Below are positions 35,892 to 43,878 of a DNA stretch of 64,000 nucleotides, one piece after another. A model generated the notes under the pieces. It was not told the DNA's origin, did not search any database, and was given only the letters and a program-made list of their open reading frames with translations. Numbering within the stretch: position 1 is the stretch's first letter; the number at the start of each line of letters is the position of its first letter. Position numbers and translations under genes: made by a program. The DNA is from Thiomicrorhabdus chilensis DSM 12352. GTDB lineage: Bacteria; Pseudomonadota; Gammaproteobacteria; Thiomicrospirales; Thiomicrospiraceae. The DNA lies in assembly GCF_000483485.1 (NCBI RefSeq), contig NZ_KI519609.1, positions 479,026 through 543,025 of the forward strand, read 5' to 3'.

Positions 35892-38585
35892 TTAAGCACT
35901 CGTCAAATCCAGGCATATGGCGGTGACTTGCGGATCGTCACTTAAAACCTTGTGTCTGAAGCCAAACTGTTTCGCCAGTTCGAGCATGCCGCGGTTTTCC
36001 GTCAGCACTTCTCCTTCCATCTGTCTCAGACCTTTGGATTTGGCTTGACGTATCAGACTTTGCAATAACAAAGCGCCGACCCCCTGATGCTGGAAGTCGT
36101 CACGCACCACAATCGCCATTTCGCAGGAGTGGCCGTCAGGATTGGTGGTATAGCGCGCCACTGCGATCTCAATGGTTTCGTCCTGTGCATTCTGAGTGGT
36201 GGCGATAAAGGCCATCTCACGGTCATAATCGATCTGCGTGAAGCGTGACAGCATCTCCGGGGTCAGCGTTTGCAGGTTATTCATAAAACGCAGATAACGA
36301 CTGCGTTTCGAGAGATTTTTAACAAAGTCGATTTCCATTTTGGCATCTTCCGGACGTATCGGACGAATTGTCAGCTCCAGCCCGGTTTGCGTCTGTGTTT
36401 TATGACTCAGTTCCGCCGGATAAGGATGGATGGCCATATGCTGGTAAGGCGTGTGCTGTCCCTCTCTGGAGTGCACTCGAATGCGTGCATCCACCGCCAT
36501 CACGCCATTCTCGTCGGCAAACAGCGGGTTGATGTCCAGCTCCATGATTTCCGGTAATTGCGAAACCATGTCGGAGATGCGCAGTAACACATCCACAATG
36601 GAATCGAGATCGACCGCCGGCAGCCCTCTGAAATGGTCGAGCATTTTGGAGACTTTGGTGCGGAGGATCATTTTCTTGGCGATGTAGGCGTTCAGTGGCG
36701 GTAGGGAGATACTGCGGTCTTGCAGGACTTCCACGGCGGTTCCGCCACTTCCGAAAGTAATGGCGGGGCCAAAGACAGGATCGCGCATCACCCCGATCAA
36801 CAACTCTCGGGCGTGGGAGGTGGGGTGCATGGGTTCAACGGTCACACCAAGGATATTGGCATCGGGTTGCGCTTGCTGGATGCGTTCCACCATCTTGGTG
36901 AATTCATGGCGCACTTCCTGCACTGAGTGGAGGTTGAGTTTGACTCCGCCGACATCTGACTTGTGGGTCAGGTTGGGGGAATTGACCTTGATGCTGACCG
37001 GGAAGCCCAGCGATTCAGCCGCCACCATGGCTTGATTGGCATTGCTCACTTCGACCGCTGCGGTGATCGGGATGCCGAAAGCGTGCATGACGGCGCGGGT
37101 TTCGGTACTGCTTAAAAAGGTTTTCTGTTCGCCGAGAGCGGCTTCTATGATGAGGCGCGCGCCATTGACGTCGGCCGGTTCGCAGTATTGGTTGGCGGTG
37201 GCCGGAGCCTGCATCAGCAGACGTTGGTTTTGATGGTAGGCTGACAAAAAAGCAAATGCTTCAACCGCCGCTTCCGGGGTGCGGAAGCTTGGAATCTGGT
37301 GGCGGCTGAAATGATTGCGCGCATCGCTCACCAGGCGTTCTCCAAGCCAGGCGGTGAAAATCGGTTTGCAATGGGGCGTATTGTGATAAAAATCGGTGAC
37401 GGCTTCGGCGATTTCAGTCGGTTCGGTCATCGCCTGAGGGGTCAGCAACACTAGAATGCCGTCGACTTGAGGATCGTCCTGGCAGACTTGTAGGGCTTTG
37501 CGGTAACGCTCGCCGGTGGCGTCTCCAAGAATGTCGATCGGGTTGCCGTGTGACCAGTGTTGGGGTAAAAAGGCATCAAAGGCTTTGATTTGTGTTTCTT
37601 CAGGTTGCGGAATCTGAATGCCCAGTTCTGCCGCACGGTCGGTGGCCATTACACCCGGACCGCCGCCATTGGTGAGGATCGCCAGGCGGTTGTTTTTAAG
37701 GGTAATGTGGTCGGACAGGGTTTTGGCGGCGGCAAACAGTTGCGAGATGGTCTGCACTCGAATCGCACCGGCGCGTTCAATGGCCGAGTCGAAAACGTCA
37801 TCGGCCCCGACCAATGCGCCGGTATGCGAGAGTGCCGCTCGGGTGCCTTCCGGCATTCTTCCGGATTTGAGTAAGATCACCGGTTTCATGCGTGCCGCCG
37901 CCTTGAGGCCGCTGATGAAACGACGTGCATCGGCGATGCCTTCAATGTAGAGCAGAATGCTGTGGGTTTTTGAATCGGCGGCCAGAAAGTCCAGAATCTC
38001 ACCAAAATCGATGTCGGCGGCATCCCCGGTGGAAATCACTTGTGAAAACCCGACATCATTGGCTTCCGCCCAATCCAGAACCGCCGTACATAAAGCCCCC
38101 GATTGCGAAACCAAAGCCAGGTTGCCCGCTTGCGCCTGATTTTTACTGAAGGTGGCATTCAAGCCGATTTCGGGTCGCAAGATACCCAGACAGTTGGGGC
38201 CTAATAAGCGCATGCCGTAGGCGTGTGCGGTCGCGGCAATCTGCTGTTGGAGACGTTTGCCCGCTTCGTTTTCAAAGCCGGCAGAGAGAATCACCAGGTT
38301 GGCCACGCCTTTTTCGCCACAGGCCTGGACAATGGAGGCGATGCTGTGTGCCGGGGTGGCGATCACGGCCAGTTCGGGAATGTCGGGCAATTGTTCGATA
38401 TTCGGATAACACGCTTGATTTTGAACCGTGTCGTGTTTAGGATTGATGGGGTAAATCGGGCCTTTGAAGCCGGCAGTAAGCAGGTTGTGCAAAGCATTGC
38501 CGCCGACTGATTCCGGGCGGTCGCTGGCTCCGAATACGGCCACGCTTTGAGGTTTGAAAAGCTTCGATAGATAATGCGGTCCCAT
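35892..38585 (-). CDS. Pat-type acyl-CoA ligase (ADP-forming) / GNAT acetyltransferase fusion
   Basis: 897 residues from the ATG at 38585 (AGAGGG upstream); the open frame reaches 38714 but that part is unlike the family. Domains: CoA-binding (1-135, FKPQSVAVFGASDRPESVGG), ligase CoA domain (about 150-460, LSHTGALVGADDVFDSAI), ATP-grasp (about 490-700, GFPVSIKVNSPNLTHKSDVG) and GNAT (about 735-890, VVRDDFQHQGVGALLLQSL). E. coli PatZ/YfiQ is similar in length and order and acetylates lysines using acetyl-CoA. It lies 33 bp from a divergent deacetylase gene. Confidence 0.92.
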   Translation of the reverse strand: MGPHYLSKLFKPQSVAVFGASDRPESVGGNALHNLLTAGFKGPIYPINPKHDTVQNQACYPNIEQLPDIPELAVIATPAHSIASIVQACGEKGVANLVILSAGFENEAGKRLQQQIAATAHAYGMRLLGPNCLGILRPEIGLNATFSKNQAQAGNLALVSQSGALCTAVLDWAEANDVGFSQVISTGDAADIDFGEILDFLAADSKTHSILLYIEGIADARRFISGLKAAARMKPVILLKSGRMPEGTRAALSHTGALVGADDVFDSAIERAGAIRVQTISQLFAAAKTLSDHITLKNNRLAILTNGGGPGVMATDRAAELGIQIPQPEETQIKAFDAFLPQHWSHGNPIDILGDATGERYRKALQVCQDDPQVDGILVLLTPQAMTEPTEIAEAVTDFYHNTPHCKPIFTAWLGERLVSDARNHFSRHQIPSFRTPEAAVEAFAFLSAYHQNQRLLMQAPATANQYCEPADVNGARLIIEAALGEQKTFLSSTETRAVMHAFGIPITAAVEVSNANQAMVAAESLGFPVSIKVNSPNLTHKSDVGGVKLNLHSVQEVRHEFTKMVERIQQAQPDANILGVTVEPMHPTSHARELLIGVMRDPVFGPAITFGSGGTAVEVLQDRSISLPPLNAYIAKKMILRTKVSKMLDHFRGLPAVDLDSIVDVLLRISDMVSQLPEIMELDINPLFADENGVMAVDARIRVHSREGQHTPYQHMAIHPYPAELSHKTQTQTGLELTIRPIRPEDAKMEIDFVKNLSKRSRYLRFMNNLQTLTPEMLSRFTQIDYDREMAFIATTQNAQDETIEIAVARYTTNPDGHSCEMAIVVRDDFQHQGVGALLLQSLIRQAKSKGLRQMEGEVLTENRGMLELAKQFGFRHKVLSDDPQVTAICLDLTSA

Positions 38586-38618
38586 TTTTACCCTCTTGCC
38601 TTTTAGGAGAACGGTTGC

Positions 38619-39545
38619 ATGAACCTCTATATTACTCATTCTCTGTGTCGTTTGCATGACAATGGGTTGGGACATCCGGAAATGCCCGAGCGGATTGCGC
38701 GGATTCAGGATCAACTCATCAGCACGCAGTTGTTTGACTGGTTTTTACATGCTGAATCACGCGCCGCCAGCGATGACGAGTTGAGTTTGGCACATCATCC
38801 TGACCTGGTGAAACAGATTGCTGAGGCTCTGCCGGAAAAAGGCGTCAGGGAAATCGGTGAGGACATTAGCTTAAGCCCCGGTTCTTTGCAGGCCGCCCGC
38901 CATGCGGCCGGTGCCGTATTGGATGCGGTGGACGCGGTTGAAAGCGGGCGTGCCAAAAGGGTTTTCTGCAATGTCCGTCCCCCTGGGCATCACGCCGAAT
39001 ACAACGAACCCAAGGGATTTTGCCTGTTCAACAATGTCGCCATAGGCGCGGCTTATGCGTTGCAAAAATACGGCTATGAGCGCATTGCGATTGTCGATTT
39101 CGATGTGCACCACGGCAACGGCACCGAATCCTATATTCGCCGTGAGCCTCGAGTCTGGTTGGGTTCCAGTTTCGAGTCTCCGTTGTATCCTTTCAGCGAC
39201 CCGTTTTCCGATGTGCAGAATATGGTGAAGATGCCACTTGAAAAGTACAGTGACAGCGCCGTTTTTCAGGAAGCCTGGCTGAACCAGGGATTGCCGGCTT
39301 TACGTGCTTTTGATCCGCAATTGATTGTGGTGTCAGCCGGTTTCGACGGCCATTTTCTGGACCCGATGGCCAATCTGCGCCTGCACGAAAAGGATTACCT
39401 GTGGATTACCCGTGAGATTGTGCGCATTGCCGATGAGTGTGCCGACGGCAAGGTGATTTCGGTATTGGAAGGCGGTTACGACCTGGCGGCCTTGAGCATG
39501 AGTGCCGCCGAACATATCAAGGAATTGTTTGGTTTGAACGCCTAG
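38619..39545 (+). CDS. histone-deacetylase-family (AcuC/HDAC) hydrolase
   Basis: 308 residues. The zinc amidohydrolase motifs are intact: RPPGHHAEYNEPKGFCLFNN (tandem His), IVDFDVHHGNGTES (Asp-X-His zinc ligands), VSAGFDGHFLDPM (third zinc Asp) and VLEGGYDLAAL. Bacterial members deacetylate proteins, polyamines or small amides. The divergent neighbour is a Pat-type acetyltransferase, so opposing control of lysine acetylation is likely. AGGAG precedes the ATG by 9 nt. Confidence 0.92.
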   Translation: MNLYITHSLCRLHDNGLGHPEMPERIARIQDQLISTQLFDWFLHAESRAASDDELSLAHHPDLVKQIAEALPEKGVREIGEDISLSPGSLQAARHAAGAVLDAVDAVESGRAKRVFCNVRPPGHHAEYNEPKGFCLFNNVAIGAAYALQKYGYERIAIVDFDVHHGNGTESYIRREPRVWLGSSFESPLYPFSDPFSDVQNMVKMPLEKYSDSAVFQEAWLNQGLPALRAFDPQLIVVSAGFDGHFLDPMANLRLHEKDYLWITREIVRIADECADGKVISVLEGGYDLAALSMSAAEHIKELFGLNA

Positions 39546-39669: not shown

Positions 39670-40824
39670 TCAAAAATTTTTCAGAAGTGCCTGTATCTGC
39701 CGCTTGGCGCTTTCGAAATCGATCTTTCCGGTGATCTCATAGACCTTGCAGTGTTGTAACAGGGTTTGGTAGTCCTGTGGTTCGGGTTCGAAGCCATTGG
39801 CCAAAAAGCCGTTTTCATTTGGGGCGTAGAAAGGCCCCGGGGTTTTCATAATGGCGGGAAGCAGCTCTTTTCTATCATTGATGTCGACTTCCGTCACTTG
39901 GGTTCGGAGCGGACTTAGCGCCTGCCAATTCAGAATGAAGAGTGCGTCGAGTTGCGCTTCGCTTTGATAACAATCTTCATGATAGAGTTGGTTTACCGGC
40001 GCGTCATACTTTTGTTCCAGAGCCCGTAAGGACTCGCTGGGCATGGCAAGGAAGCGCTCACGTTCGGTTTGGCTGATCAAATTTTGTAATCGCGGATTAT
40101 GCACGATGGTGCCCGGATTGATGCGTGGTTGCTTGGGAATGCCGCGCATGCTCAAAAAACCGTCGTCTTGTTGTTTCATCAGTAAACGGTCATTGCTGAT
40201 GAAATGTTGGCCCTCTTCCAACAGGTGCAGCATCAAGGTGGATTTCCCGCCTCCGGAAAGTCCGGCAATCGCCAGGCCGTGGTTGTGTATCTGCAAGGCC
40301 GAGGCATGCCCCAGCAGCCATTGATGGCGCAGGTGGTGGTTCAGATATTGGGTGAGGACAAAGTTGATGATCTGGCTGCTATGGGTTTCCGCCGGTCCGA
40401 AAGCCATGGGGGACACCGCCTCCGTAAACGGAGCAGGTTGCATAAACAGCATGCCGGTTTTGACCTTATGAAGCAGGCGTACTGGATGCTCATCCAGTCG
40501 AACGTCGGCCACGGCATCCTTGCGGCCGGTTTTTCCGGGCTCTCTTTGCCAGTCCTGCCACTCGGTTTGTTGAATGGCGTTTTCCAGGACGTCGCTCTGA
40601 TAGACGACAATGGTTTGCTCCGAACTCAAGTTTGAGGTCGAACTCCATTCGCTTAGTCCGGCAAAATAGTACCGCAGAGTCTCAAGCAAGGCTTGTGAAT
40701 TACTGCGCACCTCTAAAGGGAATCCCTTTAAGTCAAGGGAAAGCCCTTTGGGTTGAAGCCGGGCCTCTTTAGAGGTGTTCAGCAGGTAGTCGAGTAGGTT
40801 TTGCGCGTTAGGATTAGTACTCAT
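39670..40824 (-). CDS. GAK system HprK-related kinase B
   Basis: 384 residues. The P-loop LAIAGLSGGGKSTLMLHLLE (about 208-227) and FISNDRLLM resemble HPr kinase/phosphorylase and its coupled loop. Substrate-side features include QINFVLTQYLNHH-like helices and GIPKQPRINPGT. This combination matches the uncharacterised family named HprK-related kinase B, which travels with an ATP-grasp enzyme and an amphi-Trp protein. Last gene of a four-gene operon; its ATG overlaps the ATP-grasp stop (ATGA). The target is unknown. Confidence 0.85.
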   Translation of the reverse strand: MSTNPNAQNLLDYLLNTSKEARLQPKGLSLDLKGFPLEVRSNSQALLETLRYYFAGLSEWSSTSNLSSEQTIVVYQSDVLENAIQQTEWQDWQREPGKTGRKDAVADVRLDEHPVRLLHKVKTGMLFMQPAPFTEAVSPMAFGPAETHSSQIINFVLTQYLNHHLRHQWLLGHASALQIHNHGLAIAGLSGGGKSTLMLHLLEEGQHFISNDRLLMKQQDDGFLSMRGIPKQPRINPGTIVHNPRLQNLISQTERERFLAMPSESLRALEQKYDAPVNQLYHEDCYQSEAQLDALFILNWQALSPLRTQVTEVDINDRKELLPAIMKTPGPFYAPNENGFLANGFEPEPQDYQTLLQHCKVYEITGKIDFESAKRQIQALLKNF

Positions 40825-41732
40825 GTCGGATTATTCAACAGCTTGTCTATGACGTAATCGGCATACTGTGCCGCCATATTCAGTCCCAAACCGTCCTGGG
40901 CACCTTTGAATCCACCGAATGCGGAGACCTCAAAGCAGACCGGTCCGGTTTCAGTTTCGGCGATGTCAACGGTGGTGTAGCTTAGGTTGAACTGCGCTTG
41001 TGCCTTATGCGCCATGGCGATTATCTCATCACTGGGTTCGACTTGGGCATATTTTCCGCCTGAATGGATGGTGGTGTTCCAGCTGTTGCCATTGCAGACC
41101 CTGGCGTAAGCACCTTTGTATTCACCGCCCAGGAAAATCAGACCCATATCATGGCCGGGGAGGTCGAGTTTTTTCTGCACATAAAAGAAGCCATGTACGT
41201 TAAAGTAGTCGAGCAGTTGTTTTTTGAGCTGCTTTTCCGGTGTTTTGCTCGACAGCACTTCCATGCCGCGCGCTTTGGTCGAAAACAGCGGTTTAAGCAC
41301 CACTTTTCCGAACTTGTGTACTGCCTGAAAGGCCGCTTCCAGATCTTCGGTGATGAGGGTTTCCGGCATCGGAATCTTGGCTTTGGCGAGCGATACGGTG
41401 CAACTCATTCGGTCGACCAGACGGATGATTTCGGCAGGATCGGAGTATATCTGCACGCCGCAGCACTCCACAAAACGCAGGATTTCAAGGCGGTCGAGTA
41501 CTTTAGGTGAGTAGGTCTGGGAGATTTTCTTGATGATGATGCCGTCGAGCTCGCACAAGCATTGATCCTTGTAGAGTACTTCGGGTTTGGAGAGGTCGGC
41601 GACCACTTTTTCAATATCGATCACACAGCGGAAGCCGGTACGGGCTTCGATTTCATCGGCCAATACTTCGGTCGACCATTTGCCGGGAATGCCGACTACG
41701 CCAATTTTGAGTTCGGACGGAGTTTTATTCAC
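40821..41732 (-). CDS. GAK system ATP-grasp enzyme
   Basis: 303 residues. An N-terminal Rossmann-like part (LKIGVVGIPGKWSTEVLADE) leads to an ATP-grasp fold: VVLKPLFSTKARGMEVLSS (ATP lysine region), LDLPGHDMGLIFLGGEYKGA, YARVCNGNSWNTTIHSGGKY and VDIAETETGPVCFEVSAFGG (metal ligands). RimK/glutathione-synthase-like ligases share this, so it probably joins a carboxylate to an amine, but the substrates are unknown. It overlaps both neighbours (4 and 8 bp). Confidence 0.88.
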   Translation of the reverse strand: MNKTPSELKIGVVGIPGKWSTEVLADEIEARTGFRCVIDIEKVVADLSKPEVLYKDQCLCELDGIIIKKISQTYSPKVLDRLEILRFVECCGVQIYSDPAEIIRLVDRMSCTVSLAKAKIPMPETLITEDLEAAFQAVHKFGKVVLKPLFSTKARGMEVLSSKTPEKQLKKQLLDYFNVHGFFYVQKKLDLPGHDMGLIFLGGEYKGAYARVCNGNSWNTTIHSGGKYAQVEPSDEIIAMAHKAQAQFNLSYTTVDIAETETGPVCFEVSAFGGFKGAQDGLGLNMAAQYADYVIDKLLNNPT

Positions 41733-43371
41733 GGAAAATTTCCTTTGGAATGCGGTAAGTTGTATGTTGTTTGGTGTTGAGTTTGATTAACTGTTCAAGC
41801 AGATACCGACCACGGTAGTGCATGGCTTTGGCATGCTCTTCATCGAGTACGAAACGTGTGGAGCTCAGGAACGAGCGCGCCAACCCCAACGCCATTCTCA
41901 GATGATAACTCTGGTCATTGATCTGTTCTGCATAACGTTCACCGAACTCATAAACCCCCTGCATGGTGAGCGCAATCAATTTGCGCACATTGGGGTCGAA
42001 ATTGAGCATGCGGTAATTGGAAACCATGAACACCGACAGGTCTTGTACATAATCGGAATATTCGGAGCGATGCAGGTCGATGAAACTGATCTGCTTTTCA
42101 AGCGGATCGTAAATGATGTTGTCCACATTGAAGTCGCCGTGAATGTAGACGCTTTTGGGCGGGCGGAATTTCTTTTCCAGACGTGCCGCTTTGCTCAGCA
42201 AAGACTCCAGAGAGATGCGTTCGACGTCTCCGATTTTGAATCCGCGCACGTCAAAATCCGGATGCACCCGATAAACGTCCTTGAGGCGTTTCTTAAGTTG
42301 CCCCATGTAGTTGGCCGAATGGCGCTCCTTGATTTGAGTCTCTTCCCAGATTTCCAGCAGCAGTGAAAACAGTTGGTTCAGTCCGGCTTCCAGGTTTTTA
42401 CGGTCCAGGTTGACGATCAACTTGTCAAAGGTCTCTCCGGTCAGATATTCATAGAGCAAGGCTGCTTTGTTACCGCTTTTATGGTAGGAATAAACCTTGG
42501 GCGCAATGCCGGGAAATTTCTTATTCCAGCTTTCAATGCCTTTTTTCTCGTCCAGCAATTTCTGTTTTTGACCTTCCTTGAAGATCGCCAGCAACTCATC
42601 ATCGGTCGGGTCGTTGCTTGAGACACCGGAGATGGTGCAGCCGGATTTGGTCTCGGCCATGCTGGTGATGGAGAACTGCGGGGCATTTGGATCAAGGTCA
42701 AGCGCACTCAAGGTCTCTTCCAGAGAGTGGTAACGTTCCAGCTTGATGCTTTGCCCGAGGTTGGCGGAAAGGATGGCTTCGCCGATACGCAAAAGCCCGT
42801 CACCAAGTTGGTTGATGTCCTTGATGATGAAGCTGGCGTTTAACAGGGCTTGTGTCTGCTGGCCTTTTTTGAGGCGCTCCTGATAATTTTCCAGTTGCTG
42901 TTGACACAGTTTGCTGATGCGTAATTGCAGACGACAGATGTCGACCGCGGTCTGTGAAGTCTCGGAAAGCATCGCCGTCTCAATCAGCTCCAATCCGGTG
43001 CGTAAAGTATCTAAGGCTTTTGCCAGAGCGGGCTTCTGAAGCAGTTTGAAACCGCTCATATTGAGCGCTTGGTAAGCGATCCGTTCCAACTGTCTGGAGA
43101 GCTCTTTCAGGCTGTGGGTCAGGTGCTGATAACTTTGAGTCAGAATCTGAATGTCGTCATCGGATGCCTTCCGACACTCCACCAGCAGATACTCCGCAGT
43201 ACGGTTGAGCAAGGTGATTTGGAAATTGTCGATGTAGTCGACCCGAGCCAGGCTTTTTTCGGCCAGTTCCTTATCCGCAGTTTCCAAAAAGGCTTCCAGT
43301 GATTGGAGCTGTTTGTGGATTTCAATGATCAGGAAACGCAGTGGGTCAAAGAGTTCAGCAGGTGTTTTCAT
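41725..43371 (-). CDS. GAK operon protein: PhoU-like helical domain plus APH-type kinase domain
   Basis: 548 residues. The first 230 are all-helical with leucine heptads and PhoU-like spacing (FDPLRFLIIEIHKQLQSLEA). The C-terminal 300 form an aminoglycoside-phosphotransferase/choline-kinase fold: ALLYEYLTGETFDKLI, then VYIHGDFNVDNIIYD (catalytic Asp and Asn) and ISFIDLHRSEYSDYVQDLSV (DFG-like Asp). It sits 11 bp after the amphi-Trp gene. A second kinase in this operon besides HprK-B. Target unknown. Confidence 0.8.
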   Translation of the reverse strand: MKTPAELFDPLRFLIIEIHKQLQSLEAFLETADKELAEKSLARVDYIDNFQITLLNRTAEYLLVECRKASDDDIQILTQSYQHLTHSLKELSRQLERIAYQALNMSGFKLLQKPALAKALDTLRTGLELIETAMLSETSQTAVDICRLQLRISKLCQQQLENYQERLKKGQQTQALLNASFIIKDINQLGDGLLRIGEAILSANLGQSIKLERYHSLEETLSALDLDPNAPQFSITSMAETKSGCTISGVSSNDPTDDELLAIFKEGQKQKLLDEKKGIESWNKKFPGIAPKVYSYHKSGNKAALLYEYLTGETFDKLIVNLDRKNLEAGLNQLFSLLLEIWEETQIKERHSANYMGQLKKRLKDVYRVHPDFDVRGFKIGDVERISLESLLSKAARLEKKFRPPKSVYIHGDFNVDNIIYDPLEKQISFIDLHRSEYSDYVQDLSVFMVSNYRMLNFDPNVRKLIALTMQGVYEFGERYAEQINDQSYHLRMALGLARSFLSSTRFVLDEEHAKAMHYRGRYLLEQLIKLNTKQHTTYRIPKEIFRE

Positions 43372-43382
43372 GACGCCATCAA

Positions 43383-43667
43383 TTATTTCGTTTTATTGGC
43401 ATCGATAAACAAAGGGGTATCGTCAATGGAGGATTCGGTGTCCGAGGACCAACTGATTTTGATGCTGAGGCTTTGTGATTTTTTGCTCTGTTCTGCTTTG
43501 ATTTTCAATTTGGCGAGGGTTTCCGGAGTCAGGGTCAGTTCGTCTTCGTCATCGGACAATACAATTTCACCTTTCTTGAAGCCTTTCATCACCGCTTTCA
43601 GATAGTTGGCGATGGCTTCTTTGTCCTGCAGGGATTCGTGTGAGAAATCTTTAATTTTTTTAGCCAT
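43383..43667 (-). CDS. amphi-Trp domain protein, first gene of the GAK operon
   Basis: 94 residues. The helix DKEAIANYLKAVMKGFKKGE is followed by strands IVLSDDEDELTLTPETLAKL and the end strand SLSIKISWSS, whose alternating hydrophobics and Trp fit the amphi-Trp domain. It could be the carrier or substrate acted on by the operon's ligase and kinases; that is inference. No signal peptide. It begins the operon amphi-Trp, PhoU/APH kinase, ATP-grasp, HprK-B. CofD-like and XXXCH partners of other GAK loci are absent here. Confidence 0.75.
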   Translation of the reverse strand: MAKKIKDFSHESLQDKEAIANYLKAVMKGFKKGEIVLSDDEDELTLTPETLAKLKIKAEQSKKSQSLSIKISWSSDTESSIDDTPLFIDANKTK

Positions 43668-43793
43668 GGTTGCTTAACCCGTCTACCTCAAACAAGGCAA
43701 TTAGTATAACGCGAAAAAGGGTGGAAGCGCGATCAATAATCGGTGATGCTTATGAAAGTTTTATGACAGGATAAGTGTTGTAAATCTTATTGG

Positions 43794-43850
43794 AAGCCTT
43801 GTTGGTAAGGCTTTAAGCCTCACAGAAATGAGACTGTGAGGCGATTTTTT
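43794..43850. terminator. two adjacent hairpins between nrdB and the GAK operon
   Basis: AAGCCTT-GTTGGT-AAGGCTT (43794-43813) and GCCTCACAG-8 nt-CTGTGAGGC (43817-43842), both perfect. The T-run (43845-43850) follows the second on the plus strand; for leftward nrdB mRNA the run is only weakly U-rich, so it may protect the 3' end or be a partial terminator. Confidence 0.5.
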
Positions 43851-43878
43851 GGAGGCTAAATGCCTGAAACGATAGCGA

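Follow-up and report, generated by a model that had tools for sequence, protein, structure and literature searches.

A GAK gene cassette split over two loci in Thiomicrorhabdus chilensis, and two phosphatases as core members of the GAK system

The GAK system is a set of neighbouring genes named in public annotation and, as far as our searches show, without a descriptive paper: no publication was found for the GAK system, amphi-Trp, the TIGR names or combinations of the member families in the literature searched, with preprints and most subscription journals outside its coverage. Here, we describe a GAK operon of Thiomicrorhabdus chilensis DSM 12352, located in a stretch of 64,000 nucleotides (bases 479026-543025 of contig 1 of the 2.44-Mb genome), which is referred to as the window. 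At 39670-43667 of the window, four minus-strand open reading frames (ORFs) overlap or lie 11 bp apart, and they are listed below with the adjoining upstream gap (all by ORF coordinates).

43383..43667, minus strand: amphi-Trp protein, 94 aa; NCBIfam TIGR04354, 81.3 bits (cut-off 31)
41725..43371, minus strand: PhoU-like domain plus APH kinase (PhoU/APH), 548 aa; Pfam PhoU and APH above cut-offs
40821..41732, minus strand: GAK ATP-grasp enzyme, 303 aa, GTG start; NCBIfam TIGR04356 grasp_GAK, 451.6 bits (cut-off 300)
39670..40824, minus strand: HprK-related kinase B (HprK-B), 384 aa; NCBIfam TIGR04355 HprK_rel_B, 297.7 bits (cut-off 200)
43668..43878, minus strand: gap of 211 bp to the upstream ribonucleotide reductase (RNR) beta gene

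The PhoU/APH gene starts 11 bp past the amphi-Trp stop and overlaps the ATP-grasp gene by 8 bp, which in turn overlaps the HprK-B gene by 4 bp. The first-pass annotation of this DNA had described four overlapping or abutting genes of the GAK families, and both the arrangement and the placement hold. Measured against the GAK system of NCBIfam (TIGR04354-TIGR04357, with XXXCH as TIGR04358), a search with the GAK hidden Markov models puts three of the window proteins above their cut-offs within one operon, and the fourth, described as a helical domain plus an APH kinase, carries PhoU and APH above the Pfam cut-offs. Pfam scores, with cut-offs in brackets, are 43.8 (27) for Amphi-Trp, 41.7 (23.2) for APH, 27.5 (23.5) for PhoU and 55.9 (21) for RimK, the last marking a RimK-like domain in the ATP-grasp enzyme. 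These families had also been described as lacking an assigned function, in keeping with the 'hypoth_equivalog' type of two of the three NCBIfam models matched.

To place the operon among its relatives, named genome contigs were scanned with an ATP-grasp profile and the best 80 of 504 relatives were kept; judged by record name, these are mostly Gammaproteobacteria, with some Alphaproteobacteria, one planctomycete and one archaeal-labelled metagenome-assembled genome (MAG). With the window they make 81 loci, many on short contigs, in which ORFs were called and clustered and profiles were rebuilt. The four families cluster far beyond chance, with PhoU/APH at 77 loci, HprK-B at 68 and amphi-Trp at 51, the later profiles raising amphi-Trp to 58 copies. 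Five further families recur. Two are phosphatases, namely a histidine phosphatase (HP) and a metallophosphatase (MPP), and the others are a Nudix hydrolase, a fusion of a SixA-like with a Nudix part (SixA-Nudix) and a GAK CofD-like protein. Long flanks (at least 6 kb before and at least 7 kb after the ATP-grasp start) are available for 42 of the 80 loci, 13 of them of Thiomicrospiraceae type and 29 outside that group. In the latter 29, PhoU/APH, HprK-B, HP and MPP are each present in all and amphi-Trp in 28 (ATP-grasp also counts 29/29, by construction, all loci having been gathered through it), while Nudix is found in 21, SixA-Nudix in 20 and CofD-like in 17. In the 13 Thiomicrospiraceae-type loci, PhoU/APH and amphi-Trp reach 13 each, HprK-B 11, and HP and MPP 9 each, and none has Nudix, SixA-Nudix or CofD-like. 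HP and MPP are thus core members of the GAK cassette, which has six core genes in all, and neither matches a GAK-named NCBIfam model. The comparison of gene sets leaves the CofD-like family (TIGR04357) as a frequent extra that is not universal in GAK.

The same association is seen at other scales. Two alphaproteobacterial plasmids carry, in RefSeq annotation, the order phosphotransferase, GAK ATP-grasp, HprK-related kinase B, histidine phosphatase, metallophosphoesterase and amphi-Trp, in one case preceded by Nudix and GAK CofD-like genes; among 72,556 plasmid records, 5 gave an ATP-grasp match at E <= 1e-40. Two genome samples were also used, one of 398 Pseudomonadota (the phylum sample) and one of 60 relatives, with one-sided Fisher p values that carry no correction for kinship. 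At thresholds of E <= 1e-60 for ATP-grasp, 1e-20 for MPP and 1e-6 for amphi-Trp, the phylum sample holds 14 genomes with ATP-grasp (13 above the cut-off), 15 with MPP and 21 with amphi-Trp. MPP occurs in 13 of the 14 ATP-grasp genomes as against 2 of the 384 others (p = 2e-21); in the genome with ATP-grasp and no MPP, G219, the ATP-grasp match is partial and stays below the cut-off, and the two with MPP and no ATP-grasp, G324 and G368, are 84-87% complete. Among the 60 relatives, the GAK ATP-grasp occurs in 20 (19 above the cut-off, 1 fragmented), PhoU/APH occurs in precisely the same 20, and all genomes with HprK-B (17, p = 3e-12), HP (15, p = 3e-10) or MPP (14, p = 2e-9) fall inside those 20. 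By record name, many carriers are marine or halophilic, and the system sometimes lies on plasmids. The cassette of L108, a MAG labelled as a Halobacteria archaeon, is like the gammaproteobacterial ones, and this MAG is probably mis-binned. In G031 (contig 5, about 180881-184545), PhoU/APH and ATP-grasp are each in two pieces, with a stop inside one PhoU/APH match, which is perhaps a decaying cassette. None of the six proteins gave a PADLOC match to anti-phage defence.

Among the 14 relatives with MPP, the gene lies within about 4 kb of ATP-grasp in 13, and the exception is the genome of the window. There, HP (C1:711966-712667) and MPP (C1:712679-713920) are adjacent, on the same strand and with full open frames, about 190 kb from the cassette, so that, relative to the NCBIfam system, they are unlinked. 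One stop codon counted within the MPP match is accounted for by sequence lying ahead of the start codon. The cassette of T. chilensis is therefore split, with four of the six core genes in the window and two elsewhere on the contig, at a second locus. The first-pass annotation had suggested a minimal form; this is not borne out for T. chilensis, because intact HP and MPP genes stand at the second locus, and their retention despite being unlinked suggests that they are still needed. The suggestion had rested on two missing members. For the CofD-like one it stands, since CofD_rel_GAK (TIGR04357) gave no match at E <= 0.001 in the window's genome and the same search was positive in 7 of 14 control genomes; for XXXCH (TIGR04358) there was likewise no match in this genome, but the control genomes were equally silent, so absence is not shown.

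As to how the split arose, loci L032 and L033, which have flanking genes in common with the window, carry HP and MPP between the RNR beta and amphi-Trp genes, and the pair is absent from that position in L034, L035 and the window. Trees were made for PhoU/APH and MPP, and none for HP. The PhoU/APH copy of the window is sister to that of L033 (100/100), whereas its MPP does not group with that of L033 (89/87 at the fork of the window copy, 94/86 for L033 with L042), and identity to L033 is 81% for PhoU/APH, 51% for HP and 60% for MPP. A simple relocation of HP and MPP out of the cassette is unsupported in view of the tree placement and the lower identity; the pair may represent a re-acquisition or an old second copy.

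In the PhoU/APH protein, a PhoU-like helical domain, spanning about residues 1-220, is joined to a kinase domain of APH type, and the profile of the protein matches structures of both PhoU and APH(3') kinases. It resembles these in both domains and in the kinase motifs, and it differs from them in that the two are fused in one chain. The exact forms of the HGDFNxDN loop and the IDLHRS segment are present in 70 of 79 copies, the others being variant or truncated; D413, N418 and D432 are invariant in 21 aligned sequences, and the window protein has the APH-type catalytic loop HGDxxxxN. An aminoglycoside resistance gene is ruled out, as the NCBIfam APH_3p model scores 38.3 bits against a cut-off of 205.

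The second kinase, HprK-B, carries the P-loop GGGKST and an NDR motif in 67 of 68 copies. It shares the P-loop kinase core with HPr kinase/phosphorylase but scores below the HprK cut-offs (30.3 against 240 bits in NCBIfam, 25.2 against 33.3 in Pfam). Its predicted model (predicted local distance difference test, pLDDT, 93.8) aligns over residues 3-384 with the ATP-dependent phosphoenolpyruvate carboxykinase (PEPCK) 2pc9_B with a VIA-align Z of 15.4 (307 residues, root-mean-square deviation, rmsd, 4.5, 14% identity), and the C-terminal part aligns with HprK at Z 14.5 (135 residues, rmsd 2.6). The likeness to PEPCK lies in the P-loop core and the predicted fold and is limited to the inner part of the enzyme (residues 79-455 of 511), at 8-14% identity to the PEPCK chains listed and with modest Foldseek TM-scores of 0.40-0.50 by query length. 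Judged by this model, the name 'HprK-related' hides a PEPCK-like shape.

For the two phosphatases, catalytic motifs are conserved in most copies. HP has the exact RHG motif in 57 of 63 copies and an invariant later histidine, and it weakly resembles phosphoglycerate mutase and CobC; MPP, weakly similar to ApaH and other phosphatases, has invariant metal ligands (D-x-H, GDxxD, GNHD, H and GH) in 17 aligned sequences, with all three patterns in 47 of 57 copies. The SixA-Nudix fusion reads RHGK in 28 of 37 copies, and the strict Nudix-box pattern matched none of the 37. Its membership in GAK in the window's family is unsupported, relatives having stand-alone SixA-like and some stand-alone Nudix proteins with or without GAK. 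No fusion between core genes was found (more than 40 bits each, disregarding cross-hits of HP, SixA-Nudix and Nudix to one another).

The ATP-grasp profile matches RimK/LysX structures, with alignments that cover either most of the chain or the C-terminal two thirds of it, and the solved relatives among the matches listed are mostly named RimK/LysX-type ligases. After its own model, the next-best NCBIfam models score 151.9 bits (MptN) and 99.4 bits (RimK family, cut-off 143.4), both under their cut-offs. No inositol kinase is among the structure matches listed for this profile, which does not exclude membership.

Taken together, these observations suggest, tentatively and at somewhat less than an even chance, that the six proteins run one reversible kinase/ligase/phosphatase cycle on a shared acidic metabolite. 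PhoU/APH and HprK-B would phosphorylate hydroxyl groups of this metabolite, ATP-grasp would couple the carboxylate of the metabolite to an amino acid (probably glutamate) via an acyl phosphate, and HP and MPP would take the phosphates off again. The PhoU-like domain may adjust the kinase in response to phosphate or metal status, and the product may be bound or carried by the amphi-Trp protein. In fuller cassettes, Nudix and CofD-like proteins would handle a nucleotide-activated form, which the lineage of the window would do without. Such a cycle fits the conservation of the catalytic motifs of the cassette enzymes in most copies. Three points make a small molecule a more likely target than the amphi-Trp protein: Nudix and CofD-like proteins are added in fuller cassettes; HprK-B is PEPCK-like in its predicted fold, and PEPCK is a small-molecule enzyme (fold alone being no proof of function); and amphi-Trp has neither a conserved tail nor an exceptionless acceptor.

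Several observations speak against such a cycle. HprK proper phosphorylates a protein, and the target of RimK is likewise a protein (ribosomal protein S6). Although it belongs to the same fold family as the RimK/LysX/MptN ligases, the GAK ATP-grasp differs from them in two sites: E-V-S, with Ser for Asn, replaces the E-x-N metal motif in 14 of 14 copies found by hidden Markov model (and in all 81 loci, a count that is partly self-selected, since one of the two search patterns consisted of this motif), and the (T/S)N..RGG loop is altered, mostly to N-T-T for (T/S)N. The enzyme may therefore carry out a reaction other than that of the characterised ligases. The remaining HP and MPP copies depart from the exact motifs. 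Five of the 20 GAK relatives are without both HP and MPP (G004, G021, G034, G035 and G037), and G037 is also without HprK-B; because G021, G035 and G037 are 99-100% complete, a reduced GAK form exists, though not in T. chilensis. Finally, the pair at the second locus has a history separate from that of the cassette, given the different placement of the MPP and PhoU/APH of this genome, and these two genes have not stayed together as a unit.

Another view makes amphi-Trp the substrate, to be phosphorylated by the kinases, extended with amino acids by ATP-grasp in the manner of RimK and reset by the phosphatases; we regard this as unlikely. The protein is present in 41 of the 42 long-flank loci, its gene not being seen in one of the 29 outside the Thiomicrospiraceae-type group, and in the phylum sample it occurs in 12 of the 14 ATP-grasp genomes, each time at most 10 kb from ATP-grasp. 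Nine of the 384 genomes without an ATP-grasp match also have it (one, G368, is GAK-like by its MPP neighbour), so amphi-Trp occurs outside GAK too. F8, H10, S12 and W73 are strongly conserved in the 58 GAK-linked copies, and the best acceptor candidates are His10 (58/58) and Ser12 (57/58). Among the 13 readable of 21 rows in the phylum sample, F-x-H-x-S is present in 6 of 7 GAK-type copies and in 0 of 6 non-GAK copies, which, like the protein targets of HprK proper and RimK, favours this view. Against it, the C-termini vary in length and sequence, the GAK-positive L119 reads FKYEALLD instead, with Tyr and Ala at His10 and Ser12, and the Nudix and CofD-like proteins of fuller cassettes suit small molecules. 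The predicted amphi-Trp model (one helix and four strands, pLDDT 83) had no match in the PDB at E <= 0.001, and its sequence matches are weak and look like chance. The stepwise modification of the small protein or a peptide proposed in the first-pass annotation is thus weakened on the side of the protein by the two core phosphatases, the variable C-terminus, the L119 replacements and the locus without amphi-Trp.

Phosphate-status signalling was also considered, in which the kinases would make a highly phosphorylated messenger, by analogy with eukaryotic inositol pyrophosphates, and HP, MPP and Nudix would clear it; this, too, has a low probability. It is favoured by the PhoU-like domain within the kinase and by eight loci, out of 80, with a phosphate or polyphosphate gene close by (phmmer, eleven queries), two of which, L070 and L102, supplied the Na/Pi and CHAD queries themselves. 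L059 has a PhoU gene inside the cassette. A CHAD-type cluster is present in four loci, of which phmmer recovers three, and CHAD-type proteins are described as polyphosphate-binding in PMC6537752. In Pfam scans of the flanks (169 near and 119 far genes), families such as PhoU, Na/Pi cotransporter, polyphosphate kinase, PstS-like and CHAD turn up, although far genes show phosphate families about as often as near ones and the PhoU and Na/Pi counts may overlap. These tallies are made without the Thiomicrospiraceae-type loci (L032-L047, L049, L076, L094), seven near-duplicate loci and genes of less than 110 aa or at least 900 aa, and a further 22 of 191 near and 30 of 149 far genes were dropped. 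In a matched control, in which each set comprised six E. coli genes, the Pho queries reached 5 loci against 1, 2 and 0 at the loosest cut, but 1 locus against 1, 2 and 0 at two stricter cuts. With the same eleven phmmer queries, no phosphate or polyphosphate gene was found in the window or in Thiomicrospiraceae-type loci, and the RimK/LysX-type matches of ATP-grasp, with no inositol kinase among them, also tell against such a messenger. The enrichment is weak and serves as a suggestive lead only.

A cofactor pathway resembling the F420/tetrahydromethanopterin tail, in which the CofD-like protein would attach a phospho-hydroxyacid and ATP-grasp would glutamylate it, appears quite improbable: it accords with the MptN and RimK scores of ATP-grasp, with CofD-like in 17 of the 29 long-flank loci and with the PEPCK-like predicted fold of HprK-B, but CofD_rel_GAK is without a match in T. 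chilensis and CofD-like is missing from all 13 Thiomicrospiraceae-type long-flank loci, and two phosphatases and a Nudix protein exceed the needs of a one-way synthesis.

The reversible cycle on a small acidic metabolite is thus the reading we prefer, and it can be extended, as a long shot, to GAK as a bacterial counterpart of eukaryotic phosphorylated-messenger cycles, with a new polyphosphorylated or phospho-amino-acid messenger sensed via the PhoU-like domain. Two kinases of unrelated fold and ATP-grasp would build this messenger, while its removal would fall to as many as four types of phosphohydrolase (HP, MPP, Nudix and SixA-Nudix). The parallel is with the eukaryotic PPIP5K/DIPP inositol pyrophosphate cycle, in which an ATP-grasp kinase, a histidine phosphatase and Nudix enzymes likewise act on one messenger. 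Papers on this subject include PMC11836120 and PMC8024741. GAK differs in that its ATP-grasp is ligase-like, with no sequence evidence for an inositol kinase.

Around the operon, the upstream neighbour is the class Ia RNR beta gene (NCBIfam), and the downstream, convergent neighbour encodes a histone-deacetylase-family protein (Pfam; 38619-39545), next to a CoA-ligase-like protein with a GNAT domain (35892-38714). The two adjoin the cassette and are a possible acetylation/deacetylation pair; the called ORFs overlap at their starts, and for the CoA-ligase-like gene the TTG start is perhaps placed too far upstream. The 211-bp gap at 43668..43878 likely holds the cassette promoter, given its position. 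No sigma-70-like match was found on the minus strand within it, promoter and terminator scans scored the real sequence no better than shuffles, and no Rfam RNA element matched at gathering score. At other loci, CNNM/CorC-type membrane proteins with CBS domains lie near the cassette in eight cases (L056, L087, L090, L097, L100, L104, L105 and L108), with two or three copies in some (one member of the cluster domain-scanned). The MAG loci L053, L062, L064 and L069 share Mur-ligase-like, glutamine amidotransferase-like and L,D-transpeptidase flank genes (one member of each scanned), and a glycerate-kinase-like MOFRL gene is present in three of these four and in L072.

The original observation of a compact GAK operon is right and the family placement is sound, and its interpretation needs two changes: the cassette of T. 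chilensis is split rather than minimal, and the system has two core phosphatases. The function we infer for it would be a cycle of modification and reset. With HP and MPP as core members, the question shifts from the product of the ligase to what is phosphorylated and reset. The split also means that counts of gene neighbours alone miss partners, as both phosphatases would be overlooked in this genome. Loss of HP or MPP should make the product pile up, which makes the two phosphatases the targets for deletion.

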